Positions 2 to 41,619 of a stretch of 64,000 nucleotides of DNA are shown here, piece by piece. The translations under genes were made by a program, and so were the position numbers. Position 1 is the first letter of the stretch. Each line of letters starts with the position of its first letter. Under the pieces are notes generated by a model that was not told the DNA's origin, did not search any database, and saw only the letters and a program-made list of their open reading frames with translations. Where the stretch lies: assembly GCF_030269645.1 (NCBI RefSeq), contig NZ_BSTR01000001.1:239740-303739 (forward strand). Reading direction: 5' to 3'. This DNA comes from Actinokineospora sp. NBRC 105648 (GTDB taxonomy: Bacteria > Actinomycetota > Actinomycetes > Mycobacteriales > Pseudonocardiaceae).

Positions 2-3000
2 CTGGTCACCGCCTTGGCCCGGCTGCACACCCGTGGTATCCCGGTCGACTGGCCCGCCTACCTCGCCCCCTTCGGTGGGACTCGGGTACCGCTGCCCACG
101 TACCCGTTCGCACGCACCAGGTTCTGGCCCGAACCGCCCGCCCGCCCGGTCGATCCGTGGCACTACCGCGCCGAGTGGCAGCCGCTGGCCGACGGCCCCG
201 CCACGCTGTCCGGCCGGTGGATGGTCCTCGGGGCCCCGGAGATCGCCGACGCCCTGCGCGTCGCGGGCGCCGAGATCGTCGAGGACGAGCCGACGAACGT
301 CCTCGCTGTTGTCCGCGGTGCGAAGGACGTCCTGGGGTTGTTGCGCCACAACGCCAAGATCTGGTGCGTCACCAGCGGCGCGGTGTCGGTCGTGGACGAG
401 GCGCCGGACCCCGAGCAGGCCCAGGTCTGGGGGCTCGGCAGGGTGGCCGCGCTGGAGTTCCCCGATCGTTGGGGCGGTTTGATCGACATTGCGGGCGGCT
501 CCCTCGACAGTCTGGCGTGGACACTGGGCTCCGGCGAGGACCAGGTGGCGATCCGCCCCGCGGGCGTGTTCGGCCGCAGGCTGCGCCGAGTCGCCGCGCC
601 CGTGCCTAGGGCGCCGTGGCACCCGGCAGGACCGGTCCTGGTAACCGGCGGCACGGGCGCGTTGGGCGCACAGGTCACGCGCTGGCTGTTGGAGCGTGGT
701 ATCGCCGAGGTCGTGCTGGCCAGTAGGCGCGGTCCCGAGGCGCCCGGGGCCGCTGAGCTGGGTGTCGAGGTTGTCGCCTGCGACGTCAGCGACCGCGCCG
801 CCCTTACCGGCCTGCTCGAAGAGCGGCAGTTCGGTGCGGTGATCCACGCCGCTGGGATCACCGGAGACGGGCTCCTCGACACGCTCACCCCGGACCGGTT
901 GGCCGAGGTGCTCGCCGCCAAGGCCGTGGCGGCCGACCTGCTGGACGAGCTGCTGGCGCCCGAGGTCGACCTGATCGTCTTCTCGTCGCTCGCGGGCGTG
1001 CTCGGCAACGCGGGCCAAGCCGCCTACGCCGCCGCGAACGCCCACCTGGACGGTCTGATCGAACGACGCAGGGCCCGGGGTGGTCGCGGGACCGCGATCG
1101 CGTGGGGTGCTTGGGCGGGTGCGGGCATGGCCGCCGAGGCGGGATCGCGCCTGGCCAGGGCCGGTTTGCCCGCCATGGCCCCCGCCCGCGCGCTCGCCGC
1201 CCTGGGGAGCGCGCTCGACGCCAACATCGGCACGCTCGTCGTCGCCGACGTGGACTGGGCGCGGTTGGCTCCCGGCTTCACCGCCACTCGGCCGAGTCCG
1301 CTGCTCGCCGAGTTGGCTCCCGTCACCGCGCCCATTAGTCCACAACGGACGAACCGGCCGATGGTGGAGCTCGTCACCGAGTTGGCCGCCGCCGTCCTCG
1401 GGCACGGTGACGGCAGTGCGATCGAACCCGGGCGGGCCTTCCGCGACCTCGGGTTCGACTCCCTCACCTCGCTGGAGCTGCGCAACCTGCTCGCCGCCGA
1501 GACCGGCCGGGCGCTGCCCGCGGGCTTGGTGTTCGACTTCCCCACCCCGGCCGCGCTCGCCGCGCACCTGGAGGGGGAGCGTGCCCCACAAGCCGCCACG
1601 ACCTCCATTGTGGATGGTGAGCCGATCGCCATCATCGGGATGAGCTGCCGGTTCCCCGGCGGTGTCGACAGTCCTGAGGCGCTGTGGGAGCTGCTGCGCA
1701 CCGGCACCGACGCGATGACCCCCTTCCCCACTGATCGCGGCTGGGATCTCGACGCACTGCGCGCGGGTGGGTCAGCCGCTCAGTCCGGCGGATTCCTCGA
1801 CGACGTGGCGGACTTTGACGCGGCGCTGTTCGGCATCTCCCCGCGCGAGGCGCTGGCAATGGACCCCCAGCAGCGACAGCTGTTGGAGGCCGCTTGGGAG
1901 GTCTTCGAGCGCGCGAACATCGACCCGCTTTCGGTCAAGGACAGCGAGATCGGCGTCTTCGCGGGCACCAACGGCCAAGACTACGCGACGCTGCTGCTGG
2001 GTTCGGACGTCGCGGTCGAGGGCCACCTCGGTACCGGGAACACGGCCAGCGTGCTGTCCGGTCGGGTCGCCTACTCGTTCGGACTGCGCGGCCCGGCGCT
2101 CACCGTCGACACCGCGTGTTCGAGCAGTCTGGTCGCGTTGCACCTGGCGATGCGGTCGCTGCGCCAGGGCGAATGCGACATGGCGCTCGCCGGCGGTGTC
2201 ACGGTGATGCCGCAACCGGGCACGTTCATCGAGTTCAGCGCCCAGGGCGGGCTCTCCTTCGACGGCCGCTGCAAGGCGTTCTCGGCGGGTGCCGACGGCA
2301 CCGGTTGGGGCGAGGGCGTGGGCCTGCTGCTGGTCGAACGACTCTCCGACGCCATCGCCAACGGCCATCGGGTGCTGGCCGTGGTGCGCGGCAGCGCGGT
2401 GAACTCCGACGGCGCGTCCAACGGACTGACCGCCCCCAACGGCCCCGCCCAGCAGCGGGTGATCCGCGCCGCGTTGGCCGACGCGGGCCTCGAACCATCC
2501 GATGTGGACGCTGTGGAGGCGCACGGCACTGGCACCTCGCTGGGCGACCCGATCGAGGCCGAGGCGCTGCTGGCGACCTACGGCGCCGACCGTGTCGAGC
2601 CGCTGTGGCTGGGTTCGGTGAAATCGAACATCGGCCACACCCAGGCGGCGGCGGGCGTGGCGGGCGTGATCAAGGTGGTGCAGGCGCTCCGGCACGGCGA
2701 ACTCCCTCGCACGCTGCACATCGACGAACCGTCCCCGCACGTCGACTGGTCCTCCGGCGTTGCCCTGCTCACCCAGCCCCAGCAGTGGCCGGACCTGGGC
2801 AGGCCGCGGCGGGCGGCGGTGTCGTCGTTCGGCGTGAGCGGGACGAACGCGCACACCGTCCTTGAGGAGTACCGGACCGAGGCGCCGCGAGGTCCGCGGG
2901 AGACGCCCGAGGTCGTGCCGTGGCTGCTGTCCGCGCGCAGCGAGCAAGCCCTGCGGCGCCAGGTGGAGCGGCTGCTCGGGGTGGACGCCGACCCGGTCGA

Positions 3001-6000
3001 CGTCGCCACGACGTTGGTTCGAGGGCGTGCGGTCCTGGAGCACCGAGCGGTGGTCTTCGGCGACCACGCGGCCGGTCTTGCCGCACTGGTGGCGGGTGAG
3101 GACTCACCGCACCTGGTGCGCGGGGTGGCCAGGGGTGCGGCGCGTGCGGTCGAGGGTGGCTTGTCGGTCGCCGAGCTGGCACAGGCTCATGTGGATGGTG
3201 CTGTGGTCGACTGGGCAGCGCTGGTCGAGCCTTGGGGCGGCAGGCTCATCGATCTGCCGACCTACGCTTTCGACCACGTCCGCTACTGGCCGGAGGCGGG
3301 CAGTCGCACGCTGTTCACCGACGCGGTGGAGGACCGTTTCTGGTCCGCTGTCGAGGACTTGGACGCCGACGCGATCGCCACCGCTCTCGACATCGAACCC
3401 GCCGGCTTGACCGAGGTGCTGCCCAAGCTGTCCGCCTGGCGCCGGGGCCGCCGGGATGAGTCCGTTGTGGACTCTTGGTGCTACCGGGTCTCGTGGCGAC
3501 CGGTCACCGACCTCAAACCCGCGACGCCATCGGGCCGCTGGCTGGTCGTGGCCCCTGATGCCGGTCCGGTGCCGGACCTGCTCGACGGCGCCGTCACCAC
3601 CCGTCTCGCGGACGGGATCCCCGCGGGCGAGTGGGCGGGTGTGCTGTCCCTGCTCGACGTCCAGGGCACGATCGCACTCCTACCGCTGGTCGACGCGCCG
3701 CTGTGGTGCCTGACCAGGGGCGCGGTGTCGGTCGGGATCGGGTCCGACGAGGGACCCGATCCCGACCAGGCCCTGCTCTGGGGCCTGGGCCGCGCCGCCG
3801 CGCTGGAGTACCCCGCCCGCTGGGCCGGGTTGATCGACTTGCCCGCCGAGGTCGACGCGCGGGCCAGGGCGCGGCTCGCCGCGATCCTCGGTGGCGCCCT
3901 CCCCGGCGAAGACCAGCTGGCGGTCCGCGCCTCCGGCGTCTTCGTCCGGCGACTGCACACCGCCAAGTCCGATCGTCCTGACTGGACAGTCACCGGCCCG
4001 GTGCTGGTCACCGGCGGGACCGGCGCGCTGGGGGCCGAGGCGGCCCGCTGGCTGGCCGACCGCGGTGTGGCCGAGCTGGTACTGGTGAGCCGCTCTGGTC
4101 CGCAGGCTCACGGTGCCGCCGAACTGGTCGCGGACCTCGCTGCCCGGGGAAGCGCCGCAACCATCCTGACCTGCGACGTCAGCGATCGGGACGCGCTCGC
4201 CGCACTCCTGGCTGAGCACCCGGTCACCGGCGTGGTGCACACCGCCGGGGTGGCCACGACGCTGCCGTTGGAGTTCACCGACGAGTTCATCCCAGACGCC
4301 AAGGTTCTCGGCGCCCGCCACCTCGACGAGCTGCTCGGCGAGCGAGCCGAGCTGTTCGTGCTGTACTCCTCGATCGCCGGGGTGTGGGGCAGCGGTGGCC
4401 AAGCCGCGTACTCCGCCGCGAACGCCTACCTCGATGCCCTGGCCGAGCGGCGCCGCGCCCGGGGCTGGGCCGGGACGTCGATCGCCTGGGGTCCGTGGGC
4501 CGAGGTGGGGATGGCGGCCCGCGAGGGTGCCGAGGACTTCCTGCGCAAGCGCGGGATCACCCCGTTGCGCCCGGGTCTGGCGGTCACCGCCCTCGGGCTC
4601 GGCGCGAGCGTGACGGTGGCCGATGTCGACTGGGACCGGTTCGTGCCCGCGTTCACCAGCGGCAGGCCGAGCCCGCTACTGGCCGAGATCCCGCTCGCGG
4701 CCGGGACGCCGCTGGTCGCCCAGGTCGACGCCGACCCGCGCGCGCTGCTGGCCCTGGTGTGCCGCGAGGTGGCGGGCGTACTCGGCTACCCCGAGCCGGT
4801 CGCGGCCGACGTGCCGTTCACCGACCTCGGCGTGGACTCCCTCACCGCCGTCCAGGTCCGGGACCGGATCGTCGCGCGCACCGGTGTCCGGCTCCCGTCC
4901 ACTGTGGTCTTCGACTACCCCACCGCCGGTGCGGTCGCCGACGAGCTGGTGGCCCGGTTGGGCGGTGTGCAGGAGGTCGAGTCCAGTCTGCGCGCACCTG
5001 CCGACGAGCCGATCGCCATCGTGGCCATGAGCTGCCGCTACCCCGGCGGCGCGACCTCGCCCGAGCGGCTGTGGGACCTGGTGGCATCGGGGACCGACGC
5101 CATGTCCGGCTTCCCGGCCGACCGCGGCTGGGACCTGTCGGCCGCGGGCGAGATCACCGCCGAGGGCGGATTCGTGCACGACGCCACCGAGTTCGACGCC
5201 GACCTGTTCGGCATCTCCCCGCGCGAGGCCGTCGCCATGGACCCGCAGCAGCGGTTGCTGCTGGAATCGGCGTGGGAGCTGCTGGAGCGCGCCGGGATCG
5301 CGCCGGACTCCCTGCGCGGCAGTGACACCGGGGTGTTCGTCGGCGCCTCGACCTCGGGCTACGGCATGGCAGGCGGCTTGCCTGAGGGGTCCGAGGGCCA
5401 CGCCATGACCGGCTCGGCGAACAGTGTCCTCTCTGGACGGTTGGCCTATTCGTTCGGCCTTGAGGGCCCCGCACTGACCATCGACACGGCGTGTTCGAGC
5501 AGCCTCGTCGCACTGCACCTGGCCGCCCGGGCGCTGCGTGCGGGGGAGTGCTCACTCGCGGTGGCGGGCGGCGTCGCGGTGATGCCGACTCCCGCCGTGT
5601 TCGCCGAGTTCGCCCGGCAGGGCGGGTTGGCCGCGACCGGGCGGTGCCGCTCGTTCGCCGACGGCGCCGACGGTACCGGCTGGGCCGAGGGGGTCGGGTT
5701 GCTGCTGGTGGAGCGCCTCTCCGACGCCGAGCGCAACGGCCACCGGGTCCTGGCCCTGGTGCGCGGCTCGGCGGTGAACTCCGACGGCGCCTCCAACGGG
5801 TTGACCGCGCCGAACGGGCCGTCGCAGCAGCGGGTGATCCGCGCGGCGCTGGCCGCCGGTGGGCTGGAACCGTCCGATGTGGACGCGGTGGAGGCGCACG
5901 GGACCGGAACCGTGCTGGGCGACCCGATCGAGGCGTCCGCGCTGCTGGCGACCTACGGGCGCGATCGGGCCGAGCCGCTGTGGTTGGGGTCGGTGAAGTC

Positions 6001-9000
6001 CAACATCGGCCACGCCCAGGCCGCCTCCGGGGTCGCGGGCGTGATCAAGGTGGTGGAGGCGCTGCGGCACGGTGTGCTGCCCAAGACGCTGCACGTCGAT
6101 GAGCCGTCCCGGCACGTCGACTGGTCCGCGGGCGCGGTGTCGTTGCTGTCGGACGCCCGGCCGTGGCCGTCGGTGGACCGGGCCCCGCGCGCGGCGGTGT
6201 CCTCCTTCGGCATCAGCGGCACCAACGCGCACGTGATCGTCGAGGGCTTCGAGCCCACCGAGACCGCCGAACCCGCAGAGCCGGGTGTGGTGCCCATGCC
6301 GGTGCCGTGGGTGGTCTCGGCGCGCTCCGCCGAGGCGCTGCGAGCCCAGGCGCGAGCACTTCTGTCCACTGTGGATGACCCAGCCGTGGGCGTCGGCCGG
6401 ACGCTGGCGCTGGGCCGCGCGGCCCTGCCGCACCGAGCCGTCGTGCTGGCCGAGGACGCCGAGGGCTTCCGCCGCGGTTTGGCTGCCTTGGCCGAGGGCC
6501 GCAAGGATCCGACTTTGGTGTCGGGAACGGCGGGATCGGGCAGCCTCGCCTACCTATTCTCCGGGCAGGGCTCTCAGCACCAGGGGATGGGTTCGGCGCT
6601 GTACGAGGCTTTCCCGACCTTCGCTGATGCCCACGACGCCGTCTGCGCGCACCTGGATCTTCCGCTGCGAGCCGCTCTCACCAGCGAAGACGTGCACCAG
6701 ACGGTCTACGCGCAGGCGGGCCTGTTCGCGTTCCAGGTCGCCCTGTTCCGCCTGCTGGAGTCCTGGGGCCTGCGACCGGACGCGCTGGCTGGGCACTCCA
6801 TCGGCGAACTGGCCGCCGCACACGTCGCCGGGATACTCGACCTGCCCGACGCCTGCGCGTTGGTCACCGCGCGTGGTCGGCTCATGCAGTCGCTCCCCGC
6901 AGGCGGTGCGATGCTGGCCGTACGGATGACCGAGGCCGAGACCCGCACCGCGCTGGCGGGCTTCGAGGACCGGGTCTCGATCGCCGCGGTCAACGCCCGC
7001 GACGCCGTGGTCGTCTCCGGCGACGCCGACGCGGTCGAGGAACTCGCCGCCCTCGCTGAGCAGACGAAACGCCAGGTCAAGCGGCTCACCGTGTCGCACG
7101 CGTTCCACTCCGCGCACATGGACCCGATCCTGGGGTCGTTCGCCGAGGTGGCCCGCGGCCTGCGGTTCCACCGCGCGCGGCTGCCGCTCGTCTCGACCGT
7201 CACCGGTGCGCTCGACGACGGTCGGATGTCCACTCCGGACTACTGGGTCGACCAGATCCGCCGACCGGTGCGCTTCGCCGACGCCGTGGCCGCACTGCCC
7301 GCGACCCGTTTCCTGGAGATCGGACCGGACAGCCCGCTCGTCGCCCTCGCCGACCAGACGCTCACCGCCCCCGGCGCCGATACGCCGGGCGCGGTCGTGG
7401 TCGCAGCCCAGCGCAAGGGGCGGGACGAGGCCGCCACCCTGCTGGCCGCCGTGTCCCGCCTGTTCACCGCCGGTGTCAAGGTCGACTGGGCGCCGGTGTT
7501 CGCGCCGTGGGGCGGCGGTCGCGCCGACGTGCCGACCTACGCCTTCCAGCGCAAGCGCTACTGGCTCGAACCGGCACCCACCGCACAACCCGCCGACCTC
7601 CTCCGCTACGCCATCACCTGGCGTCCCGTGAGCGACCCGGAAACCGTGGTCCCGCAGGGAAACTGGGTCGTCGTGAGCAGTGGGGCGGACCCGCTGGCCG
7701 GTCTGCTGCGCGCGCACGGCATGACCATCGCCGAGATCACCGCCGAGTCGGGTGCCGACCGGGTCATCCTCGGCAAGCGCCTGCTCGACGCCGAGCGACC
7801 GGCGGGTGTCATCGCCGTGCTGACCGAGCCCGAGGCGCTGCTCGCACTGGTCCAGGCGATGACCGACCTGGGGCTCGACGCTCCACTGTGGAGTGTCACG
7901 CGCGGCGCGGTGAGCACCGGGCCGAGCTACCCGCTCACCCGTCCCGACCAGGCTCGCGCCTGGGGCCTGGGCCGGGTGGCCGCGCTGGAGCAGCCGCACC
8001 GCTGGGGCGGCTCGGTCGACCTGCCCGCCGACGCGGACGCGCGCTCGACCGCTCGACTGGTCTCCGTGCTCGCCGCAGGCGGTCCCGAGGACCAGCTGGC
8101 CATCCGCGGTGCCGGTCTGTACGCCCGCAGGCTCACCCGGACCGCGCCCGCCAAGCCGAGGCCCTGGCAGCCCAGGGGAACCGTGCTGATCACCGGTGGC
8201 ACGGGGGCCCTCGGCAGGCGGGTCGCGCGGCTGTTGTCCGAGCGCGGGGCCAAGAACATCATCCTGCTCAGCAGGCGGGGCGAGGACGCGCCGGGTGCCC
8301 GGGAGTTCGCCGCCGAGCTCAAGGCCAAGGTCACCTTCGCCGCCTGCGACGTCGCCGACCGCGACGCCGTGGCCGCCGTGCTCGACGCCATCCCCAAGCG
8401 CAGGCCACTGCGGATGGTCGTGCACGCCGCCGGTGTCCCCGACGACACCGAACTCGCCGCCCTCGCCCCGGCCCGGCTGCGCACTGTGCTGGCGGCTAAG
8501 GCCGACGGCGCCCGCCACCTGCACGAACTGACCCACGACCTCGACCAGTTCGTCCTGTTCTCCTCGGTCGCCGGGGTCTGGGGCGCCGCAGGCCAAGGCG
8601 CGCACGCCGCCGCCAACGCCTACCTCGACGCCCTCGCCCTGCACCGCCAGGCCGACGGCCTCCCTGCCACCACGATCGCCTGGGGCCCGTGGGCCAGTGA
8701 CCAGGACCAAGACGCCCTGATCCGCCGTGGCCTGCTGCCCCTCGACCCGGACAGCGCCCTCGCCGCCCTCGACACCACGCGGGGTGCCACCGTGGTCGCC
8801 GATGTCGACTGGGACCGGTTCCACCCCGCCTTCACCCTCGCGGGCCCGCGCCCGCTGCTCGACGACCTCGCCGAGGTCCGGCGCCTGACGACCGCCCCCA
8901 GGGTGATCGCCCCCAAGCGGGTGGGCGACGTGCTCGACTTGGTCCGGGAGACCACGGCCCGGGTCCTCGGCCACGCCGACACCACCCCGGTGGCGCCCGA

Positions 9001-10027
9001 CCGCGGCTTCCTGGAGTTGGGCGTCGACTCGCTCACCGCCCTGGAGCTGCGCCAGGCCCTCCAGGAGGCCACCGGCATCGAGCTGCCCGGCACGGTGGTG
9101 TTCGACCACCCGACCCCAGCCGCCTTGGCCCGCCACCTCGACGGTCACAGCGCCCCGACCGAGCAGCTGGGCATCTCGCCGGACGACCGCAACCCGGTGG
9201 GCCTGCTCGACTCCCTCTACCGCGAGGCCACCCGCACCGGCCGCACCCAGGACTTCCTCGCCTTCCTCGGCGACGCCGCGAAGTTCCGCCCCGCCGCCGA
9301 CACCGCCGCCAACCTGGCCCCGGCCGCGGCGGTCACCCTGGCGACAGGCCCCGCGCCTGCTCTGCTCCTGTGCTGCAGCGGCCTCACGGCGGGCGGCGGT
9401 CCGCACGAGTTCGCTCGGCTCGCCGCGCGTCTGCGAGACCAGCGCGACGTACAAGCGTTGCCAGTACTGGGTTACGGACGAGGTGAGCTGCTCCCCGCCA
9501 CCGCCGAGATCGCCCTCGACTGGCAGGCCGACGCGGTCCCGGTCGACCGTCCTTTTGTCCTATTGGGACATTCCGGCGGCGCCACCCTGGCGCACCGCCT
9601 GGCGACCCGCCTGGTCGAGCGGGGCACCCCGCCCGCCGCGCTGGTGCTGGTCGACATCTACCCGCTCGACCACCCGGTCATGAACGACTGGGCCGACGAG
9701 CTGTCCGAGGGCGTCTTCGAACGCCAGGACCAGTACGTCCCGATGGACGACGTGCGGCTGACCGCGATGGCCTGGTACGGCAGGCTGTTCTGGCAGGCCC
9801 CCGACCCCGAGCACCGGGTCCCCACCCTGCTCGTGCGGGCCACCGAGGCACTGGGCGAGCACGGCGGCGACTGGCGCAGCAGCTGGCCCACCACGTCCAC
9901 AGTGGACGTGGTGGGCAACCACTTCACCATGATGTCCGAGCACGCCGGGTCGACCGCCGACGCGGTCCACCGATGGATCCGCGACCAGCTCGGCGAACCG
10001 CCCCACGAGAGGAAACACCAGCGATGA
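2..10027 (+). CDS. Modular type I polyketide synthase, terminal protein (5' partial)
   Basis: The reading frame is open from base 2, so the protein starts upstream. Domains in order, with approximate base positions: end of an AT and its linker (2-170), KR1 (600-1230, TGGTGALG), ACP1 (1360-1590, GFDSLTS), KS1 (1618-2880, TACSSSL plus both His motifs), KR2 (3990-4640), ACP2 (4735-4950), KS2 (5008-6260), AT (6540-7400, GHSIGE with HAFH, the malonyl-CoA signature), KR3 (8170-8800), ACP3 (8925-9140) and thioesterase (9350-10000, GHSGG with Asp and GNHF). The module between KS1 and ACP2 has no AT domain. KR3 has His where the catalytic Tyr is expected, so it is probably inactive. KR1 lacks the Trp typical of A-type KRs and KR2 has it. 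The TE should release the chain, probably by lactonisation. The stop overlaps the next gene as ATGA. Confidence 0.97.
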   Translation: MVTALARLHTRGIPVDWPAYLAPFGGTRVPLPTYPFARTRFWPEPPARPVDPWHYRAEWQPLADGPATLSGRWMVLGAPEIADALRVAGAEIVEDEPTNVLAVVRGAKDVLGLLRHNAKIWCVTSGAVSVVDEAPDPEQAQVWGLGRVAALEFPDRWGGLIDIAGGSLDSLAWTLGSGEDQVAIRPAGVFGRRLRRVAAPVPRAPWHPAGPVLVTGGTGALGAQVTRWLLERGIAEVVLASRRGPEAPGAAELGVEVVACDVSDRAALTGLLEERQFGAVIHAAGITGDGLLDTLTPDRLAEVLAAKAVAADLLDELLAPEVDLIVFSSLAGVLGNAGQAAYAAANAHLDGLIERRRARGGRGTAIAWGAWAGAGMAAEAGSRLARAGLPAMAPARALAALGSALDANIGTLVVADVDWARLAPGFTATRPSPLLAELAPVTAPISPQRTNRPMVELVTELAAAVLGHGDGSAIEPGRAFRDLGFDSLTSLELRNLLAAETGRALPAGLVFDFPTPAALAAHLEGERAPQAATTSIVDGEPIAIIGMSCRFPGGVDSPEALWELLRTGTDAMTPFPTDRGWDLDALRAGGSAAQSGGFLDDVADFDAALFGISPREALAMDPQQRQLLEAAWEVFERANIDPLSVKDSEIGVFAGTNGQDYATLLLGSDVAVEGHLGTGNTASVLSGRVAYSFGLRGPALTVDTACSSSLVALHLAMRSLRQGECDMALAGGVTVMPQPGTFIEFSAQGGLSFDGRCKAFSAGADGTGWGEGVGLLLVERLSDAIANGHRVLAVVRGSAVNSDGASNGLTAPNGPAQQRVIRAALADAGLEPSDVDAVEAHGTGTSLGDPIEAEALLATYGADRVEPLWLGSVKSNIGHTQAAAGVAGVIKVVQALRHGELPRTLHIDEPSPHVDWSSGVALLTQPQQWPDLGRPRRAAVSSFGVSGTNAHTVLEEYRTEAPRGPRETPEVVPWLLSARSEQALRRQVERLLGVDADPVDVATTLVRGRAVLEHRAVVFGDHAAGLAALVAGEDSPHLVRGVARGAARAVEGGLSVAELAQAHVDGAVVDWAALVEPWGGRLIDLPTYAFDHVRYWPEAGSRTLFTDAVEDRFWSAVEDLDADAIATALDIEPAGLTEVLPKLSAWRRGRRDESVVDSWCYRVSWRPVTDLKPATPSGRWLVVAPDAGPVPDLLDGAVTTRLADGIPAGEWAGVLSLLDVQGTIALLPLVDAPLWCLTRGAVSVGIGSDEGPDPDQALLWGLGRAAALEYPARWAGLIDLPAEVDARARARLAAILGGALPGEDQLAVRASGVFVRRLHTAKSDRPDWTVTGPVLVTGGTGALGAEAARWLADRGVAELVLVSRSGPQAHGAAELVADLAARGSAATILTCDVSDRDALAALLAEHPVTGVVHTAGVATTLPLEFTDEFIPDAKVLGARHLDELLGERAELFVLYSSIAGVWGSGGQAAYSAANAYLDALAERRRARGWAGTSIAWGPWAEVGMAAREGAEDFLRKRGITPLRPGLAVTALGLGASVTVADVDWDRFVPAFTSGRPSPLLAEIPLAAGTPLVAQVDADPRALLALVCREVAGVLGYPEPVAADVPFTDLGVDSLTAVQVRDRIVARTGVRLPSTVVFDYPTAGAVADELVARLGGVQEVESSLRAPADEPIAIVAMSCRYPGGATSPERLWDLVASGTDAMSGFPADRGWDLSAAGEITAEGGFVHDATEFDADLFGISPREAVAMDPQQRLLLESAWELLERAGIAPDSLRGSDTGVFVGASTSGYGMAGGLPEGSEGHAMTGSANSVLSGRLAYSFGLEGPALTIDTACSSSLVALHLAARALRAGECSLAVAGGVAVMPTPAVFAEFARQGGLAATGRCRSFADGADGTGWAEGVGLLLVERLSDAERNGHRVLALVRGSAVNSDGASNGLTAPNGPSQQRVIRAALAAGGLEPSDVDAVEAHGTGTVLGDPIEASALLATYGRDRAEPLWLGSVKSNIGHAQAASGVAGVIKVVEALRHGVLPKTLHVDEPSRHVDWSAGAVSLLSDARPWPSVDRAPRAAVSSFGISGTNAHVIVEGFEPTETAEPAEPGVVPMPVPWVVSARSAEALRAQARALLSTVDDPAVGVGRTLALGRAALPHRAVVLAEDAEGFRRGLAALAEGRKDPTLVSGTAGSGSLAYLFSGQGSQHQGMGSALYEAFPTFADAHDAVCAHLDLPLRAALTSEDVHQTVYAQAGLFAFQVALFRLLESWGLRPDALAGHSIGELAAAHVAGILDLPDACALVTARGRLMQSLPAGGAMLAVRMTEAETRTALAGFEDRVSIAAVNARDAVVVSGDADAVEELAALAEQTKRQVKRLTVSHAFHSAHMDPILGSFAEVARGLRFHRARLPLVSTVTGALDDGRMSTPDYWVDQIRRPVRFADAVAALPATRFLEIGPDSPLVALADQTLTAPGADTPGAVVVAAQRKGRDEAATLLAAVSRLFTAGVKVDWAPVFAPWGGGRADVPTYAFQRKRYWLEPAPTAQPADLLRYAITWRPVSDPETVVPQGNWVVVSSGADPLAGLLRAHGMTIAEITAESGADRVILGKRLLDAERPAGVIAVLTEPEALLALVQAMTDLGLDAPLWSVTRGAVSTGPSYPLTRPDQARAWGLGRVAALEQPHRWGGSVDLPADADARSTARLVSVLAAGGPEDQLAIRGAGLYARRLTRTAPAKPRPWQPRGTVLITGGTGALGRRVARLLSERGAKNIILLSRRGEDAPGAREFAAELKAKVTFAACDVADRDAVAAVLDAIPKRRPLRMVVHAAGVPDDTELAALAPARLRTVLAAKADGARHLHELTHDLDQFVLFSSVAGVWGAAGQGAHAAANAYLDALALHRQADGLPATTIAWGPWASDQDQDALIRRGLLPLDPDSALAALDTTRGATVVADVDWDRFHPAFTLAGPRPLLDDLAEVRRLTTAPRVIAPKRVGDVLDLVRETTARVLGHADTTPVAPDRGFLELGVDSLTALELRQALQEATGIELPGTVVFDHPTPAALARHLDGHSAPTEQLGISPDDRNPVGLLDSLYREATRTGRTQDFLAFLGDAAKFRPAADTAANLAPAAAVTLATGPAPALLLCCSGLTAGGGPHEFARLAARLRDQRDVQALPVLGYGRGELLPATAEIALDWQADAVPVDRPFVLLGHSGGATLAHRLATRLVERGTPPAALVLVDIYPLDHPVMNDWADELSEGVFERQDQYVPMDDVRLTAMAWYGRLFWQAPDPEHRVPTLLVRATEALGEHGGDWRSSWPTTSTVDVVGNHFTMMSEHAGSTADAVHRWIRDQLGEPPHERKHQR

Positions 10028-10917
10028 CCGAAGTCCTGGCCCGCGCGAGCGGCGTCACCCGCCGGTACGGCGACGTGGTCGCCGTCGACGAGCTGTCCCT
10101 GGAGATCCCGGCCGGGCAGATGCTCGGCCTGCTCGGCCCCAACGGCGCGGGCAAGTCCACGCTGATCAACATGTTCGTCGGGCTGCGCAAGCCGTCCGCC
10201 GGGTCGGTGGAGCTCTTCGGCCACAACCCGCGCGACGTGCGGGCGCGCCGCCGGATGGGGATGACCCCGCAGGAGACCGGCATGCCGGAGACCCTGCAGG
10301 CGGGCGAGGTCATCGAGTTCGTCGCCTCGCACTACCCCAACCCCATCGGGCGCAAGGAGCTCCTCGAGCAGTTCCACCTCGAGGAGGTCGAGAAGCGCCA
10401 GACCGGTGGCCTCTCCGGCGGCGAGAAGCGCAGGCTGGCCATCGCGCTGGCCTTCGTCGGCCGCCCCGACCTGGTCTTCCTCGACGAGCCGACCACCGGC
10501 CTGGACGTCGAGGTGCGGCGCGCGCTCTGGGATGGCGTCAAGGCCTACAACGCCGCGGGCGGCACCGCGGTGATCACCAGCCACTACCTCGAGGAGATCG
10601 AGGAGCTGGCCGAGCGGGTCGTCATCATCGACAGCGGCAAGCTGGTCGCCGACGACAGCGTCGCCTCGCTGCGCCGGGTCAGCGGCCTGCGCAAGGTCAC
10701 CGTGCGCACCCCCGAGGTGCCGACCCTGCCCGGGGTCGTCGGGGTCGAGCAGGACGGCGACCGGGTCAGCCTGATCACCCCGGACTCCGACCAGCTGGTC
10801 CGCGACCTGGTGGCCTCCGGGGTCGCCTTCAGCGAGCTGGAGGTGCGCCCCGGCTCGCTGGAGGACGCCTTCCTGGCCTACACCGCCAAGGCCCCCACCA
10901 CCGCGTCGTCCGTCTAG
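10024..10917 (+). CDS. ABC transporter ATP-binding protein (drug-export type)
   Basis: A 297-residue ATPase of the ABC-2/DrrA-like type. Walker A is GPNGAGKST near residue 38, the signature is LSGGEKRRLAIALA near 130, and Walker B is DLVFLDEPTTGLD near 150. A C-terminal extension of about 80 residues follows, as in DrrA and NatA homologues. The ATG overlaps the PKS stop (ATGA), with a GAGAGGAAA ribosome site inside the PKS end, so I chose this start over the longer open frame. It works with the permease that starts 11 bases after its stop. Its place in the polyketide operon suggests product export or self-protection. That role is inferred, and the substrate is not shown by sequence. Confidence 0.93.
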   Translation: MTEVLARASGVTRRYGDVVAVDELSLEIPAGQMLGLLGPNGAGKSTLINMFVGLRKPSAGSVELFGHNPRDVRARRRMGMTPQETGMPETLQAGEVIEFVASHYPNPIGRKELLEQFHLEEVEKRQTGGLSGGEKRRLAIALAFVGRPDLVFLDEPTTGLDVEVRRALWDGVKAYNAAGGTAVITSHYLEEIEELAERVVIIDSGKLVADDSVASLRRVSGLRKVTVRTPEVPTLPGVVGVEQDGDRVSLITPDSDQLVRDLVASGVAFSELEVRPGSLEDAFLAYTAKAPTTASSV

Positions 10918-10928
10918 GAGAGTCCACA

Positions 10929-11666
10929 GTGAACACGATCGCCGCCTACACCAAGTTCGAGATCCTGGGTGCCATCCGCATCCCGATGGTCTTCGTCGCA
11001 CTGATGTTCCTGCCCACCGTGGGCATGCTGCTGTTCGTGGTGCCCGCGCTCGGCGACGACCCGGTCGGCGCCACGCTGAGCACCGGCTCGATGTGCCTGT
11101 TCACGGTGCTGATCATCTGCTCGGCGCAGTACGGCCTGGGCATCGCCGACGCCCGGATGAAGCCCTGGGGCGGCTACGTCCGCACCCTGCCCGGCGGACC
11201 GCTGCCCAAGATGGTCAGCATGATCGTGATGAGCTCGCTGTTCGTGGTCGCGGGCGCGCTGCCGCTCATCGCCATCGCCGCGATCGGCACCGCGGCCTCG
11301 GTGTCCTTCGGAGGGGTGCTGCTCGGCCTGGGCGCGCTGGTGCTGGCCGTCATCCCGTTCTCGCTGATGATGCTGGCCATCGGCTACGCGGTGAACCCGT
11401 ACCTGGTCAGCGTGATCACCAGCATCGCCCCGATCATCCTGGCCTACCTGGGCGGGCTGTTCACCGATCCCAACAGCACCAGCGGTTTCACCACCGGCTT
11501 CGCGCCGTTCATCCCCACCCGCGGCTCCGCCGAGCTGGTCTGGGCCGCGGTCGGCGACTACTCGCCGAACCCGCTGTCGATGGTGATGCTCGGCGTCTGG
11601 ACCGTCGTGCTGGCCTTCCTCGCCTACCAGGCGTACCGGTCCGACGAGGGCAAGCGCTTCCGCTGA
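10929..11666 (+). CDS. ABC-2 type transporter permease
   Basis: A 245-residue integral membrane protein with about six hydrophobic segments (around residues 20-37, 57-75, 96-118, 122-150, 155-172 and 217-236). This is the size and layout of DrrB/ABC-2 permeases. It follows the ATPase by 11 bases and has an AGGAGAG ribosome site before its GTG start. With the ATPase it would form a half-size exporter in the cytoplasmic membrane. Placement between the PKS and sugar genes suggests it exports the glycosylated polyketide. This is inferred from context and not from any substrate motif. Confidence 0.88.
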   Translation: MNTIAAYTKFEILGAIRIPMVFVALMFLPTVGMLLFVVPALGDDPVGATLSTGSMCLFTVLIICSAQYGLGIADARMKPWGGYVRTLPGGPLPKMVSMIVMSSLFVVAGALPLIAIAAIGTAASVSFGGVLLGLGALVLAVIPFSLMMLAIGYAVNPYLVSVITSIAPIILAYLGGLFTDPNSTSGFTTGFAPFIPTRGSAELVWAAVGDYSPNPLSMVMLGVWTVVLAFLAYQAYRSDEGKRFR

Positions 11667-11684
11667 ACCACCCGAAGGGGCATC

Positions 11685-12275
11685 ATGCAGTTCCGCAACC
11701 TCAAGGTCGACGGCGCCGTCGAGTTCACCCCCAGGGTGTTCCCGGACGACCGCGGCCTGTTCCTCTCGCCCTTCCAGGAGTCGGCGTTCCTGGCGGCCAC
11801 CGGGCACCGGCTGTTCCCGGTGGCCCAGACGAACCACAGCCGCTCCCGACGGGACGTGGTGCGCGGCGTGCACTTCACCCTGACCCGGCCGGGCTCGTCG
11901 AAGTACGTCTACTGCGCGCGCGGCAAGGCGATCGACATCGTCGTCGACCTCCGCGTCGGCTCGCCGACCTTCGGCGCCTGGGACTCGGTGCTGCTCGACC
12001 AGGACGACTTCCGGGCGATGTACTTCCCGGTCGGCTGCGGGCACGCGTTCGTGGCGCTGGAGGACGACACCGTCATGTCCTACATGGTCTCCAGCGCCTA
12101 CGTGCCCGAGCACGAGCTGGCGCTGCTGGTCACCGACCCGGCCCTCGGGCTGCCGGTGCCGGAGAACGCGATCATCTCCGAGCGCGACCTGGTCGCGCCG
12201 CGGCTGGCCGACGCCATGGACCTCCTGCCGCGCTACGAGCTGTGCCAGGAGATCGAGCTGGAGCTGCGCGGATGA
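11685..12275 (+). CDS. dTDP-4-keto-6-deoxyhexose 3,5- or 5-epimerase (RmlC family)
   Basis: A 196-residue cupin of the RmlC/DnmU/EvaD type. The catalytic His lies in VRGVHF (family LRGLHY) near residue 63, and the Tyr/His region MYFPVGCGHAF is near 107-117. Length is normal for the family. Acting on a dTDP-4-keto sugar, it would invert C5, and C3 where that centre is free, giving the L-configuration. An AAGGGG ribosome site precedes the ATG, and the stop overlaps the next start as ATGA. Together with the 2,3-dehydratase and aminotransferase downstream it points to an L-2,6-dideoxy-3-amino sugar. Whether it epimerises C3 as well as C5 cannot be read from sequence. Confidence 0.92.
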   Translation: MQFRNLKVDGAVEFTPRVFPDDRGLFLSPFQESAFLAATGHRLFPVAQTNHSRSRRDVVRGVHFTLTRPGSSKYVYCARGKAIDIVVDLRVGSPTFGAWDSVLLDQDDFRAMYFPVGCGHAFVALEDDTVMSYMVSSAYVPEHELALLVTDPALGLPVPENAIISERDLVAPRLADAMDLLPRYELCQEIELELRG

Positions 12276-13213
12276 CGCGGGTGGTGGTGCTCGGCGCGTC
12301 CGGGTTCATCGGCTCGGGCATCACCCGGGCGCTGGCCCGCGCGGACGTCTCGCTGCGGGTCGTGGCGCGCAGGCCGACCCCGGCGCCCGCGCACGTCGAG
12401 GTGCGCGCCGCGGACCTGACCGACGGGGTCGCCGAGCACGTGGCCGACGCCGACGCGGTGGTGCACCTGGCCGCCTACACCGACGGTGGCTGGCGGGTCG
12501 CCGACGGTGACACCGTGGCCGAGCGGGTGAACGTCGGCCTGGTCGCGGACCTGGTCGACGCGCTGCGCGGCAGGCCGTCGCCGCCGGTGGTGCTCTTCGC
12601 CGGGACCGAGACGCAGGTGGGGCTGACCGAGCGGGTCCGCATCGACGGCTCCGAGCCCGACAACCCGCGCAGCGCGTACACGCGGCAGAAGTTGGCCGCG
12701 GAGAACCTGCTCAAGGACGCGACCGCCGAGGGGGTCCTCCGGGGCGTTTCCCTCCGGTTGCCCACGGTCTACGGCCAGGGGCCGGAGACCACGGCACGCG
12801 ACAAGGGTGTCGTCGCGCTGATGGTGCGCAAGGCGTTCGCCGACGAGCCGCTGACGATGTGGCACGACGGCACCGTGCGCCGCGACTTCGTCTACATCGA
12901 CGACGTCACAGCCGCGTTCGTGTCCGCTTTGGACAACGCGGACGCGCTCGCGGGCAAGCACTACGTGCTCGGCAGTGGCGTGGGCGAGCCGCTGGGCAAG
13001 GTGTTCGCCGAGATCGCGGCGCGGGTGTCGGCCACCACCGGCCGTCCGCCGGTGCCGGTGGTGTCGGTGCCCCCGCCCGGGCACGCCGAGCCGACCGACC
13101 TCAAGAGCGTCGAGGTGGACGCGTCGGCGTTCCGCGCGGTCACCGGGTGGGAGCCGCGGGTGCCGCTGACCGAGGGCATCCGCCGCACGGTCGCCTCGAT
13201 CGCGGGGGAGTGA
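12272..13213 (+). CDS. dTDP-4-keto-6-deoxyhexose 4-ketoreductase (NAD-dependent epimerase/dehydratase family)
   Basis: A 313-residue short-chain dehydrogenase of the extended type. The N-terminal nucleotide-binding motif is GASGFIGSG (residues 8-16) and the active-site YxxxK is present as YTRQK near residue 138. The family includes the 4-ketoreductases EryBIV, DnmV and EvaE, which carry out the last reduction of deoxysugar pathways. The ATG overlaps the preceding stop (ATGA), so translation is probably coupled. The stereochemistry at C4, which would separate daunosamine from acosamine or ristosamine types, cannot be called from sequence. Confidence 0.88.
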   Translation: MTRVVVLGASGFIGSGITRALARADVSLRVVARRPTPAPAHVEVRAADLTDGVAEHVADADAVVHLAAYTDGGWRVADGDTVAERVNVGLVADLVDALRGRPSPPVVLFAGTETQVGLTERVRIDGSEPDNPRSAYTRQKLAAENLLKDATAEGVLRGVSLRLPTVYGQGPETTARDKGVVALMVRKAFADEPLTMWHDGTVRRDFVYIDDVTAAFVSALDNADALAGKHYVLGSGVGEPLGKVFAEIAARVSATTGRPPVPVVSVPPPGHAEPTDLKSVEVDASAFRAVTGWEPRVPLTEGIRRTVASIAGE

Positions 13214-13215
13214 GC

Positions 13216-14415
13216 GTGGCCCGGGTCCTGTTCCTGAACAACTCCGGCTTCGGCCACGTCATGCCGTCGCTGAGCGTGGTGGCCGAGCTGGTGCGGCGCG
13301 GGCACGAGGTGTCCTATGTGACCAGTGGCGGTCCGGTGCCGAAGGTGGCGGCCACCGGCGCGACCGTCGTGGAGTACGACTCGGAGCTGCCCGGGATCGA
13401 CCTGTCCGCCTACGTCACCGCCGACGAGACGGCCGCGCTGACCGGCATCTACCTCACCGAGAGCGAGCGCGTCCTCGACGCGGTCGTGGCCCAGCCCGGT
13501 CCCGAGCCGGACCTGATCTGCTACGACCTGACCGTCTACCACGCCGCGCGGATCCTCGGTCGCGCGTGGGGGGTCCCGACCGTGCAGTGCCTGCCGGTGT
13601 TCGCCTCGAACGAGCACTTCTCGCTGCTGGAGAAGATGGTCGAGAAGATGGGCCGCGCCGAGCTGAGCCACCCCGAGCTGCAGTCCTTCTTCGCCCGCCT
13701 CACCCGGCTGCTCGTCGCGCACGGCCAGGGCGACACCGACCTGAAGGACTTCATCGGCCGCACCGAGGAGCTGAACCTGGCGTACTTCCCGCGCTCGTTC
13801 CAGTTCGCGGGCGACACCTTCGACGAGCGCTTCGCCTTCATCGGCCCGGGGCTCGACCCGGACCCGACCGCGCAGCCGTGGAAGCCGCCGATGACCGACG
13901 ACCCGCTGGTGTTCGTCTCGCTGGGCACCTGCGTGAACCGGCGGGCGGGGTTCTTCAAGGTCTGCGTGGACGCCTTCCGGGACCAGCCGTGGCACGTGGT
14001 GCTGGCCGTGCACGAGGGCGTCGACCGGGCCGCACTCGGTCCACTGCCGTCCAATGTGGAGGTCCACGGTTGGTTGCCGCACCTGGAGGTTCTCGCGCAC
14101 ACCGACGTCTTCCTCTCACACGCGGGCCTGGGCAGCGTCATGGGCGCCCTGCACCAGGGCGTGCCGCTGGTGGTCGTCCCGGCGTCTCCTGAGGACTGGG
14201 TGAACGCGCGCCGGGTCGCCGAACTCGGCCTGGGCCGGGTGATCCGCGACGAGCTGCCCACCCCGGCGAAGCTGCGCGCGGCGGTGGTCGAGGTCGCGGG
14301 TGACCGGCTCACCGCCCAGCGGGTCAGCCGGATGCGCGTGGACATCGGTGCCGCGGGCGGTGGCCGGGCGGGCGCCGACGCGCTGGAGCGGCTGCTGGCG
14401 AATGGGGGCCGATAG
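13216..14415 (+). CDS. Glycosyltransferase, macrolide/MGT type (GT1 family)
   Basis: A GT-B fold glycosyltransferase of about 399 residues. The N-terminal acceptor domain begins with GFGHVMPSLS, where the His is the catalytic base position in GT1 enzymes. The C-terminal nucleotide-sugar domain contains FLSHAGLGSVMGALHQGVPL and then PEDWVNARRV, the usual donor-binding region. Two in-frame GTG codons exist, at 13210 (overlapping the previous stop) and at 13216. I chose 13216 because GGGGGAG lies five bases upstream. No DesVIII/EryCII-type helper gene is present. It most likely transfers the aminosugar made by the neighbouring enzymes to the polyketide aglycone. Confidence 0.92.
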   Translation: MARVLFLNNSGFGHVMPSLSVVAELVRRGHEVSYVTSGGPVPKVAATGATVVEYDSELPGIDLSAYVTADETAALTGIYLTESERVLDAVVAQPGPEPDLICYDLTVYHAARILGRAWGVPTVQCLPVFASNEHFSLLEKMVEKMGRAELSHPELQSFFARLTRLLVAHGQGDTDLKDFIGRTEELNLAYFPRSFQFAGDTFDERFAFIGPGLDPDPTAQPWKPPMTDDPLVFVSLGTCVNRRAGFFKVCVDAFRDQPWHVVLAVHEGVDRAALGPLPSNVEVHGWLPHLEVLAHTDVFLSHAGLGSVMGALHQGVPLVVVPASPEDWVNARRVAELGLGRVIRDELPTPAKLRAAVVEVAGDRLTAQRVSRMRVDIGAAGGGRAGADALERLLANGGR

Positions 14416-14504
14416 GGGTTGTCAGTCCAGCTGGCCCGTTCCTACGCTCGGATCCGTTGAGCCGCAAGCGGTTCCGTGCGCCACGACGCGATGAGGACTT
14501 CACC

Positions 14505-15944
14505 GTGACCGACGTATCCGACCGGGTTGGCGATGCCGCCCGCATCGCCCACTCGGCACGCACCCCCTACGCGGTCACCGACCCGGCCGCGCTCGAGGCG
14601 TGGCTCACCGACTGCCGCGCCCGCTTCCACACCCACGTCGAGCCCATCCCGCTCGACCGCCTCGACGGCTGGTCGGTGCACCCGGAGACCGGCGACATCG
14701 GCCACCGCAGCGGGAAGTTCTTCACCGTGCGCGGGCTCGACGTCGAGGTGGCGGGGGCGCCGATCGCCCGGTGGAGCCAGCCGATCATCAGCCAGCCCGA
14801 GATCGGCATCCTGGGCATCCTGGTCAAGGAGTTCGACGGTGTCGCGCACTGCCTGATGCAGGCCAAAGTGGAGCCGGGCAACGTCAACGGCGTCCAGCTC
14901 TCGCCCACCGTGCAGGCCACCCGCAGCAACTACACCAGCGTGCACGGCGGCAAGTCGGTGCCCTACCTGGAGTACTTCCGCGACACCGCCGGGCACACGG
15001 TGCTCGCCGACGTCCGCCAGTCCGAGCAGGGCGCCTGGTTCCACCGCAAGCGCAACCGGAACATGGTCGTCGAGGTGCACGACGAGGTCGAGGTGCTCGA
15101 CGGCTTCTGCTGGCTGACCCTGGCCCAGGTGCACGAGCTGCTCCGGCTCGACGACCTGATCAACATGGACACCCGCACGGTGCTGTGCTGCTTCCCCTTC
15201 TCCGGCAGGGGTTCCGCGTCCGCCTACGGCACCGGCTCGGGCTTCCGCGAGAGCCTGGTGCGCTCGCTCGACGACGCCCAGCCCGCCGCGCACCCCATCG
15301 GCGAGGTGCTCAGCTGGATCACCGACGCGCGCACCCGCCAGGACGTCCGCGTCCGCGAGATCCCGCTCAACACCGTCGCGAACTGGCGCTGGTCCGAGGG
15401 CCGCATCACCCACGACAGCGGCCTGTTCTTCGACGTGGTCGGCGTGGGCGTCTCGGCGGCGGGCCGCGAGGTGGGCAACTGGCACCAGCCGATGCTGCGC
15501 CCGCGCGGCCTCGGGCTTGTGGCGTTCCTGGTGCGGCGCGTCGACGGCGTGCTGCACGTGTTGATGCACGCGAAGGTCGAACCGGGCTACTTCGACGTCG
15601 TGGAGCTGGCCCCGACCGTGCAGTGCACCCCCGAGACCTACGCCGAACTGCCCGCCGAGGCCCGCCCACCCTTCCTCGACGAGGTGCTGACCGCGGCTCC
15701 GTCGGCGATCCGCTTCGACGCCGTGCACTCCGAGGAGGGCGGCCGCTTCCTGCACGCCCGCACCCGGTACGTGGTGATCGAGTCCGATGTGGACGCATCG
15801 GCCGCCCGGCACCCCGACCACCGGTGGCTGCCGCTGCACCAGCTCGCCACCCTGCTGCGGCACAGCCACTACCTCAACGTCCAGGCGCGCAGCGTGCTCG
15901 CCTGCCTGCACAGCCTGGTGTCCGGCCCGGAGGGAACAGCATGA
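14505..15944 (+). CDS. NDP-hexose 2,3-dehydratase
   Basis: About 479 residues built from two homologous halves, as expected for the EryBVI/TylCVI/DnmT family. Each half has a W..P........G...F..V pattern (for example [11 protein letters not shown] near residue 60 and [11 protein letters not shown] near 305) and a K-V-E-P-G motif ([10 protein letters not shown] and [10 protein letters not shown]). The enzyme removes water from the dTDP-4-keto-6-deoxyhexose to start C2 deoxygenation, giving a 3,4-diketo intermediate. The GTG start is chosen from the GATGAGGAC ribosome site seven bases upstream; a TTG 48 bases earlier has none. It is coupled to the aminotransferase by an ATGA overlap. Confidence 0.94.
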
Positions 15945-30375: not shown

Positions 30376-33372
<2,997 letters not shown>

Positions 33373-40800: not shown

Positions 40801-41619
40801 CCCGACCCGGCGCGGGTCCAGCAGGACTCGCAGCAGCCGCGCCGGGTCGTGCCGGGCGAGCAGGCCGATCGTGTGCCAGAGCCCGCTGGGCAGCGCGACC
40901 ACGCCCGCGGTGCGCTCGAGCAGGGTCAGCACCCGCCGCGGGTCGGCCCCGGCCGCCTCGGCGAGCACCTGGCCGAGCCGGTTCCACAGCCCGGGCCAGT
41001 TCGCCCGGGGGACCCGGTCGAGCTCGGCCTCGACGTGGTCGAGCAGCGGGCCGGGGTGGGCCCGGGCGAGCGCCGACCAGCTGCCCACCGCGTACCCGAG
41101 CTCGGGCAGCGCGGCGGCCACGATCTCCGGCGGGCAGGAGACCAGCAGCGCGACGGCCTCGTGGTCGCCGAACCGGGCGCGCACCCGGGGCAGCAGGGCC
41201 GCGGCCAGCTCGTGGCGGCGGTGCGCCCGAACGGCCTTGTACAACCGCTTGCGCAACGCCGCGGGGAGGTCGTCGACCAGGTCGGCGGGCAGCGCCACCC
41301 CCAAGCGGACGGCGTGCAGGACCGCGTGTGCGCGCAACCGCGTCTCGGGCGCGGACAGGCACCGCAGGACGTAGTCGGCGTCGCCCGCGATCGCCGCCAG
41401 CCGCAGGCCCACCCGCCTGCCGTGCGGGTCGGACGCGTGCAGCTCCTCGACGAGCGGCCGCAACCGGGCCCGGTCCAGCTGCCGCGCGAGCACGGCGAGG
41501 TGGTGCTGGCGCCGCGGGTAGGGCAGCGGGTCGAGGTCGCGGAGCAGGGAGCGCGCCGAGGTGCTGTTCACACCGGGCATTGTGGTCGGTCCGGCTGCCG
41601 GCCGCGCGGAGTTGTCCAC
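37840..41619 (-). CDS. Giant alpha-solenoid (HEAT-repeat-like) protein
   Basis: 1259 residues from a GTG at 41619; ATG at 41580 is an alternative, and no strong ribosome site picks between them. Most of the protein is repeated 30-40-residue helical pairs with Ala/Leu-rich and Arg-Ala patterns typical of HEAT or ARM solenoids. Residues about 955-1100 are a Pro/Thr/Ser-rich disordered insert, after which a helical C-terminal domain resumes (about 1115-1259). No catalytic motif, ATPase or transmembrane segment is seen. Such proteins usually act as protein-interaction scaffolds. The adjacent small motif protein may be its partner. It is divergent from the oxygenase gene. Confidence 0.78.
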   Translation of the reverse strand: MDNSARPAAGPTTMPGVNSTSARSLLRDLDPLPYPRRQHHLAVLARQLDRARLRPLVEELHASDPHGRRVGLRLAAIAGDADYVLRCLSAPETRLRAHAVLHAVRLGVALPADLVDDLPAALRKRLYKAVRAHRRHELAAALLPRVRARFGDHEAVALLVSCPPEIVAAALPELGYAVGSWSALARAHPGPLLDHVEAELDRVPRANWPGLWNRLGQVLAEAAGADPRRVLTLLERTAGVVALPSGLWHTIGLLARHDPARLLRVLLDPRRVGSIPVSRGLWRALLGCADDELGALARVLRGDQLPGFLHTLPPSRRAAVYAAAIGDRDLVAAGIPLDAVDELPRAARAREAERLLGLRSGADDPGLRLAVTARTDWATAGPVLAEATRRSTADERAEAYPLAIAAAAATRDRVEFGAYLGTLTRLRNEQAPVRSAALHALAKVPPWLYGEADIPALTALLTDAAESHDRSASSSWGVRLLASLLIREGTARGLPALLDCGLAALTTLGDKTMVINLHGVADGLPHGAERAVHAALAPRLANEARRGHFDLALALAAGLGERAWDIPGLQAVIDQARRAKDDTVVRSAIELWLAPPTTRGDRVAQVLRADRSTIVLPAVRAAVARRRTDLLDDVLARPARGRFLSGKVHWIPEFTACFDAWLPRQCARYAALLTEVANDTTLEQYARTEAVRRLRHVPGAAPALRELSRSPVVVIAEAALAGLAWTEEPGEVLPDLLAWADTDRARVAIHAVARSARFIQPSELAVRLAPMLAAKKVTTRKEVLRLLATHHVPGAAEIIANAFRAPDQHRDIRRAAASASRHLLDSAAAWQTLTAAAQDELAVAGAVLETWPHSLPERHRPPYATLIRTVAMSNAPDTAREGLRVLPGWSQWDTAGTAMLVDLVTDLSTTATWRFALTALTSAATTTGDPTPVLEAVHRLLAAGDNQTSTHSPAPNDSSHLQPEMDSGATSTTTPTPATATPDSPAEQSPSAPDNNAGTPTPGKAMPDPAAGGRVPTDHQDTPAATTGHDPTRSSVDPTPERSGPSGQSGPSSQDRAVAGVAIPATAGTPGTSAAIPSAETPGDPVGREARESVRSRPAPDRDLPARQRLHALAAEVAAAAVRGTGRELATAVGAALVDDTWRPVAVDLGLAAITWESVDPAALRAVHALAGGPVQAWQAAQVLRSRLGQVVSRLPDDSLLAVARDLVPDAPAFALGVTTVTGESAGWPTRWRDILDDLREHPDPHTRTAALAVFTRPE

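Follow-up and report, generated by a model that had tools for sequence, protein, structure and literature searches.

A module without acyltransferase inside a cis-AT polyketide synthase of Actinokineospora

Introduction

Modular type I polyketide synthases (PKSs) of the cis-AT kind, such as DEBS, Lsd14 and rifamycin module 1, load the acyl carrier protein (ACP) of a module with the acyltransferase (AT) of that same module, whereas trans-AT PKSs, such as those of iso-migrastatin (MgsE) and bacillaene, rely on a free enzyme. The subject of this work is module 30 of a 31-module PKS from Actinokineospora sp. NBRC 105648, which has a ketosynthase (KS), a ketoreductase (KR) and an ACP but no AT. It is encoded near the start of a stretch of 64,000 nucleotides (hereafter the window; C1:239740-303739) of the source genome, a draft of 8.43 Mb in 149 contigs that we call NBRC 105648. 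The module had been noticed in an initial annotation of the window, which is followed up here. Domains bear the number of their module (KS30, KR30, ACP30), and "the six species" are NBRC 105648 and its congeners G003, G005, G008, G009 and G014.

Thirty of the 31 modules of this cluster are of the cis-AT kind, and in both sequence and structure searches KS30 and its linkers come closest to DEBS, Lsd14 and rifamycin module 1; the absence of an AT sets module 30 apart from these systems. Like MgsE KS3 and bacillaene KS2, module 30 has no AT and has a KS whose linker remnants are predicted to fold without one. It differs from trans-AT systems, however, in the lower identity of its KS to theirs (see below) and in that no dedicated trans-AT was found in the cluster. 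Of the 31 modules, it is the only AT-less one. AT-less and AT-bearing modules also occur together in another actinobacterial line, that of kirromycin, for which PMC5818483 describes AT-less proteins, KirAI-KirAV, separate from a single cis-AT protein and served by the dedicated enzymes KirCI and KirCII. In NBRC 105648, by contrast, the one AT-less module is part of a cis-AT protein.

Two other systems resemble module 30 in the way it may be served. In DEBS AT6null, a cis-AT module without a working AT is served by the malonyl-CoA:ACP transacylase of S. coelicolor, according to PMC6164871; the service is of the FabD type, as proposed below for module 30, but that AT was inactivated by engineering whereas the AT of module 30 is absent in nature. 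Similarly, PMC13096860 reports that FabD of primary metabolism acts as the trans-AT of an AT-less PKS in the biosynthesis of barnesin A, although the protein concerned, BrnF, is a trans-AT type protein of a hybrid of non-ribosomal peptide synthetase and PKS, rather than a single module within a cis-AT polyketide line. In the open-licence literature we found no report of the AT-less module 30, nor of any natural case in which just one extension module of a cis-AT line lacks its AT and no dedicated AT serves it. Large PKS clusters are documented in the genus: A. bangkokensis is described in PMC6273641 as having two large type I PKS clusters beyond that of thailandin, with 20 and at least 24 modules.

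Architecture of module 30

The PKS genes of NBRC 105648 form ten frames (C1:100013-249763), and the first 10 kb of the window are the 3' part of the last one, a frame of 5708 residues that terminates in a thioesterase and is open from window position 2 to 10027. Module 30 is the penultimate module, with the order KS, KS-AT linker, post-AT linker, PKS_DE, KR and ACP (Table 1). Domain models built from the cluster itself count 31 KS, 30 AT and 31 ACP in each of the three clusters that were fully read (NBRC 105648, G008 and G003); for NBRC 105648 the count excludes the separate frame at C1:312786, which holds one AT and two KS pieces. The order of KS and ACP domains is identical in the three, the loading KS carries an active-site Gln in each of them, and a KR in module 31 is present only in NBRC 105648. 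In all three clusters the AT is absent from module 30 and from no other module.

The Pfam model Acyl_transf_1 matches the PKS protein once, at residues 2184-2493, which belong to the next module; the clean absence of the AT announced by the initial annotation is thus borne out. No Acyl_transf_1 match was found in the 242 residues encoded by window positions 2795-3520, where PKS_DE, KAsynt_C_assoc and CurL-like_PKS_C were found. From the end of the KS (TNAH) to the LPTYxF motif, module 30 has 137 residues, compared to 468 and 418 in the two modules upstream. The distance from KS to KR is 382, 383 and 383 residues in the three species, against 554-733 residues for the remaining stretches between KS and KR in these clusters that lack a dehydratase. 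The gap starts just before the FSGQGSQ position of an intact module, in agreement with the place given earlier for the break, and ends inside the post-AT linker. The earlier figure of about 112 residues between KS and post-AT linker was roughly right (about 120), and the orthologue alignment and the structure model agree that both linkers are retained. The frame is open, as had been stated, and the catalytic motifs of the KS (DTACSSS, EAHGTGT, SNIGH), the KR (GGTGALG, Lys, Ser, Tyr, Asn) and the ACP (DSL) are all present; these motifs are kept in the six species.

Table 1. Features of the end of the PKS gene, in window coordinates.
Feature	Position	Strand	Evidence
KS30, ketosynthase of the AT-less module; active Cys codon 2117-2119	1619..2854	+	Pfam, cluster HMM, DTACSSS/EAHGTGT/SNIGH in 6/6 species
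KS-AT linker domain, retained	2855..3127	+	orthologue alignment; model strands and helices 441-509, pLDDT about 90-97
Junction loop, about 280-300 AT residues absent; length differs by a few residues among species	3128..3166	+	orthologue alignment, model, KS-to-KR distances
Post-AT linker, retained	3167..3298	+	orthologue alignment, model; conserved W, WGG and LPTYxF motifs
PKS dimerisation element (PKS_DE)	3329..3457	+	Pfam E 2.1e-14
KR30, ketoreductase; catalytic Lys, Ser, Tyr and Asn present	3998..4525	+	Pfam, cluster HMM, motif comparison
ACP30; pantetheine Ser codon 4838-4840, helix-II Gln codon 4853-4855	4745..4927	+	Pfam, cluster HMM, motif comparison
KS31 of the next, final module	5003..6232	+	cluster HMM
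AT31, malonyl type (GHSIG, HAFH), possible ACP30 donor	6545..7441	+	Pfam, cluster HMM, motifs
KR31, His (codon 8603-8605; QGAHAAANAY) replacing catalytic Tyr; missing in the other five species	8180..8707	+	cluster HMM, motif comparison
Thioesterase closing the assembly line	9386..9976	+	Pfam E 1.1e-17

Distribution of the AT-free junction

A query of 218 residues spanning the junction was searched in 16 Actinokineospora genomes, six of which, including NBRC 105648, have the AT-free junction. In G003, G005, G008, G009 and G014 the match covers residues 1-214, 2-214 or 5-214 without an AT insert, at 56-57% identity, within frames of 5174-5528 residues; the G003 genome is a single contig. The two best matches to the junction in named genomes, both full-length, are those of A. 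diospyrosa DSM 44255 and A. globicatena DSM 44256. Nine of the ten remaining congeners have weaker junction matches (best E 1.6e-31 or higher) and G012 has none. No further full-length orthologue was found in samples of 297 genomes of the family and 394 of the class, considering the best 10 or fewer and the best 7 candidates per genome, respectively, and a plasmid search gave partial matches in 40 records, in none of which the coverage reached 80%.

The initial annotation had itself raised a collapsed assembly, in which an AT of about 900 bp would be missing here, as the explanation that would undo its claim. NBRC 105648 is indeed a draft of many contigs and PKS modules are repetitive, but the same junction is present in five other assemblies, including the single-contig one, and has diverged there to 56-57% identity. 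The missing AT is therefore not an assembly error, and we reject the collapse, whose probability is negligible.

Descent and modelled fold

A profile of KS30 and its linkers, compared with known structures, scores DEBS-type structures best (756 bits); the KS of bacillaene PksJ reaches 405 bits, and PDB entry 7zma 714 bits as the sum of two stretches. The structure of the AT-free KS30 with its linkers was modelled from an alignment of 79 rows, and the fold was predicted with high confidence (mean pLDDT 93.4). The nearest PDB matches of the model are modules of Lsd14, DEBS and rifamycin, with 53-62% identity. The trans-AT KSs MgsE KS3 (4qyr) and bacillaene KS2 (4na2) match the model along most of both chains, with TM scores of 0.88-0.89 (normalised to the model) and 0.84-0.85 (normalised to the target), but with an identity of only 36-39%. 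The three KS30 copies form one clade among the KSs of the clusters, as is true of 30 of the 31 KS positions (KS12 is the exception).

By its sequence, KS30 is of cis-AT descent. Module 30 is therefore a cis-AT module without its AT. The insertion of a trans-AT module into a cis-AT line was considered and rejected, since KS30 is closest in sequence to cis-AT enzymes and its three copies form a single clade. In the model, the retained linkers would close over the gap and give the module the outline of a trans-AT KS. The hybrid of cis-AT and trans-AT logic proposed by the initial annotation thus holds for the anatomy and the modelled fold, but not for the descent.

Within the assembly line, KR30 is nearest to KR21 (NBRC 105648 and G003) or KR16 (G008), ACP30 to ACP21 in all three clusters, and KS30 to KS11 or KS17. 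As the nearest neighbours of the three domains differ, module 30 may be a mosaic.

Relatives outside the genus

A syntenic cluster occurs in G045, probably Labedaea rhizosphaerae (C7:101212-265151, L184-L192); all of its modules carry an AT, with counts of 34 for KS, AT and ACP alike. With those of NBRC 105648, its KSs at positions 28 and 29 share 81-82% identity, and the module at the step of module 30 bears an AT with GHSVG and HASH, the latter being described in PMC7489565 as a hybrid motif of relaxed selectivity. However, this module and module 30 are not close orthologues: among the matches of its KS, the NBRC 105648 KS30 comes 45th of 93, among those of its KR the NBRC 105648 KR30 comes 8th of 88, and among those of its ACP the ACP30 copies come 82nd, 83rd and 87th. 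It therefore tells us that an AT is possible at this step, but not that the very AT of module 30 was lost.

Four matches of the family scan that span the junction were followed, two of which are AT-free (G158, G042) and two with AT (G200, G113). In G158 (C119, L160, minus strand), a draft of about 280 contigs from another genus of the family, an AT-less KS-KR-ACP extension module lies in a cis-AT-like PKS, and its ACP has YSL instead of DSL. In the single-contig genome G042 (C1, L159, frame from 7908), a loading module made of KSQ and ACP, in which remnants of the linkers but no AT are present, precedes ordinary cis-AT modules. These two cases suggest that the loss of the AT from cis-AT lines may be recurrent.

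Signs that module 30 still works

The ratios of non-synonymous to synonymous substitutions (dN/dS) of KS30, KR30 and ACP30 are low: 0.04, 0.19 and 0.06 between G003 and G008, and 0.10, 0.13 and 0.08 between NBRC 105648 and G008; these values are rough, as dS is 0.5-1.3. Ranked by identity in the same two pairs, both of which include G008, KS30 is 10th and 23rd of 31, KR30 24th and 10th of 29, and ACP30 second of 31 in both. The adjoining module provides an internal control: KR31 is missing in five species and has lost its catalytic Tyr to His in NBRC 105648, while KR30 is kept. The retention of KR30 next to a KR that decays when it is not needed suggests that module 30 still forms and reduces a keto group, and hence that ACP30 is loaded. 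Judging from these sequence comparisons, module 30 is real and probably works as an extension module. Since the rest of the module is kept intact in the six species, its extender unit probably comes from another enzyme. The loading of this ACP from elsewhere, put forward in the initial annotation, is therefore supported on condition that module 30 extends the chain.

ACP30 has a peculiarity in helix II. Seven residues after the start of the DSL motif, it has Gln in the six species. Outside Actinokineospora, the same position is Glu or Asp in 155 of 158 ACP motifs and Gln in one (73 loci; two motif matches lying in AT sequence were dropped). An acid is found in 24 of the 25 ACP motifs detected in NBRC 105648, the exception being ACP30; G008 and G003 each have one further ACP with Arg at this position. 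Together with the high conservation of ACP30, the Gln suggests an altered partner recognition, without pointing to the partner.

Who loads ACP30?

KS30 would receive the chain from ACP29 and condense it with an extender unit carried by ACP30; KR30 would reduce the new keto group, and module 31 and finally the thioesterase would take over the chain. The search of the cluster for a discrete AT, proposed in the initial annotation, found none: every Acyl_transf_1 match on C1 up to position 315206 lies inside a PKS frame. Elsewhere in NBRC 105648, discrete ATs are FabD (C53:50101), in a fabD-fabH-acpP-fabF operon, a protein of 279 residues (C74:24297) and an AT at C1:399020. FabD-type frames of 317-339 residues occur in all six genomes, and FabD is the only discrete malonyl-AT present in all six among the matches listed. 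FabD is also said to serve FK228.

The best explanation, to which we give about an even chance, is that module 30 is a working module of cis-AT origin whose AT has been absent since before at least six Actinokineospora species parted, and whose ACP would be charged in trans, most probably by the housekeeping FabD of fatty-acid synthesis, which would transfer malonyl from malonyl-CoA. FabD is ranked first because of its presence in the six genomes and of the precedents of DEBS AT6null and barnesin A; AT29 or AT31, the neighbouring ATs, seem less likely loaders. Several observations weigh against this explanation. FabD reads acidic residues in helix II of its ACP partners, with which the Gln of ACP30 sits badly, leaving room for AT29 or AT31. 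Several other ACPs are at least as close to the housekeeping AcpP as ACP30 is (25%, tied second of 31). Finally, KR30 is below the median in the pair G003-G008 (see its rank above; dN/dS of 0.19 against a median of 0.12), and in NBRC 105648 it is shorter by 4 residues just before the catalytic Lys.

Part of this evidence bears on a different proposal, namely that AT29 or AT31, which are of the malonyl type and belong to the same polypeptide, loads ACP30 besides its own ACP, so that a free loader protein is not needed. AT29 has GHSIG in the six species and AT31 GHSIG or GHSFG, both have HAFH in NBRC 105648, and no dedicated discrete AT was found in the cluster or, among the matches listed, in the six genomes. 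AT29 has the top identity (0.80, jointly with AT21) of the 30 ATs compared between NBRC 105648 and G008, and ACP30 is second most conserved in both pairs and has a changed recognition helix, in which the replacement of the acid by Gln in six species would have adapted it to the non-cognate AT29 or AT31. However, AT29 is unexceptional between G003 and G008 (0.84, with six ATs higher), AT31 is mid-range between NBRC 105648 and G008 (0.70, median 0.695), the two species pairs share G008, and no natural precedent was found in the open-licence literature. Such a natural sharing between modules is possible but doubtful.

It is improbable that module 30 no longer extends the chain and merely hands it from ACP29 to module 31. 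The lack of an AT and the position of KR30 below the median in one pair would fit, and skipping from ACP to ACP is known in hybrid PKSs (from a title cited in PMC6164871), but the KS, KR and ACP motifs are kept in all six species, KR30 is retained next to a lost or degraded KR31, and ACP30 is among the most conserved ACPs. An unrecognised dedicated AT encoded outside the cluster is quite improbable as well. NBRC 105648 has several discrete ATs, and the counts over six genomes cover the stronger-scoring matches; yet the other five genomes lack a counterpart of the AT at C1:399020 (best match 39% identity), and frames scoring like the C74 protein (225-233 bits) occur in only four of the six genomes among those matches. 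We therefore rejected the former as the loader and the latter as a universal one.

Genomic surroundings

Genes for an ABC transporter ATPase, a dTDP-4-dehydrorhamnose 3,5-epimerase, an EryCIII-like glycosyltransferase and an NDP-hexose 2,3-dehydratase adjoin the PKS (window 10009-15944), and the product of the PKS is therefore probably glycosylated. Elsewhere in the line, ACP28 reads LGLASAGAVELRN in the six species, with the Ser retained and the DSL motif replaced by ASA (L038, frame position 1499; L140-L144). Further along the window, the alpha and beta subunits of glycyl-tRNA synthetase are fused in a single frame of 998 residues (30376-33372), and a frame of 1259 residues on the minus strand (37840-41619) has a coding-like composition and no Pfam match at 1e-6.

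Implications

Module 30 is a natural and evolutionarily stable counterpart of the engineered AT-null experiment. It shows where the AT can be missing from a cis-AT module with both linkers kept and the rest under constraint, and which position of the ACP differs alongside this absence. For one extender unit of the 31-module line, there is no AT sequence from which to predict it. If AT29 or AT31 were indeed shared, extender loading would have a third mode besides cis (by the module's own AT) and trans (by a free enzyme). Module 30 offers a testable snapshot of how a cis-AT module may turn trans-AT-like without the recruitment of a dedicated AT.

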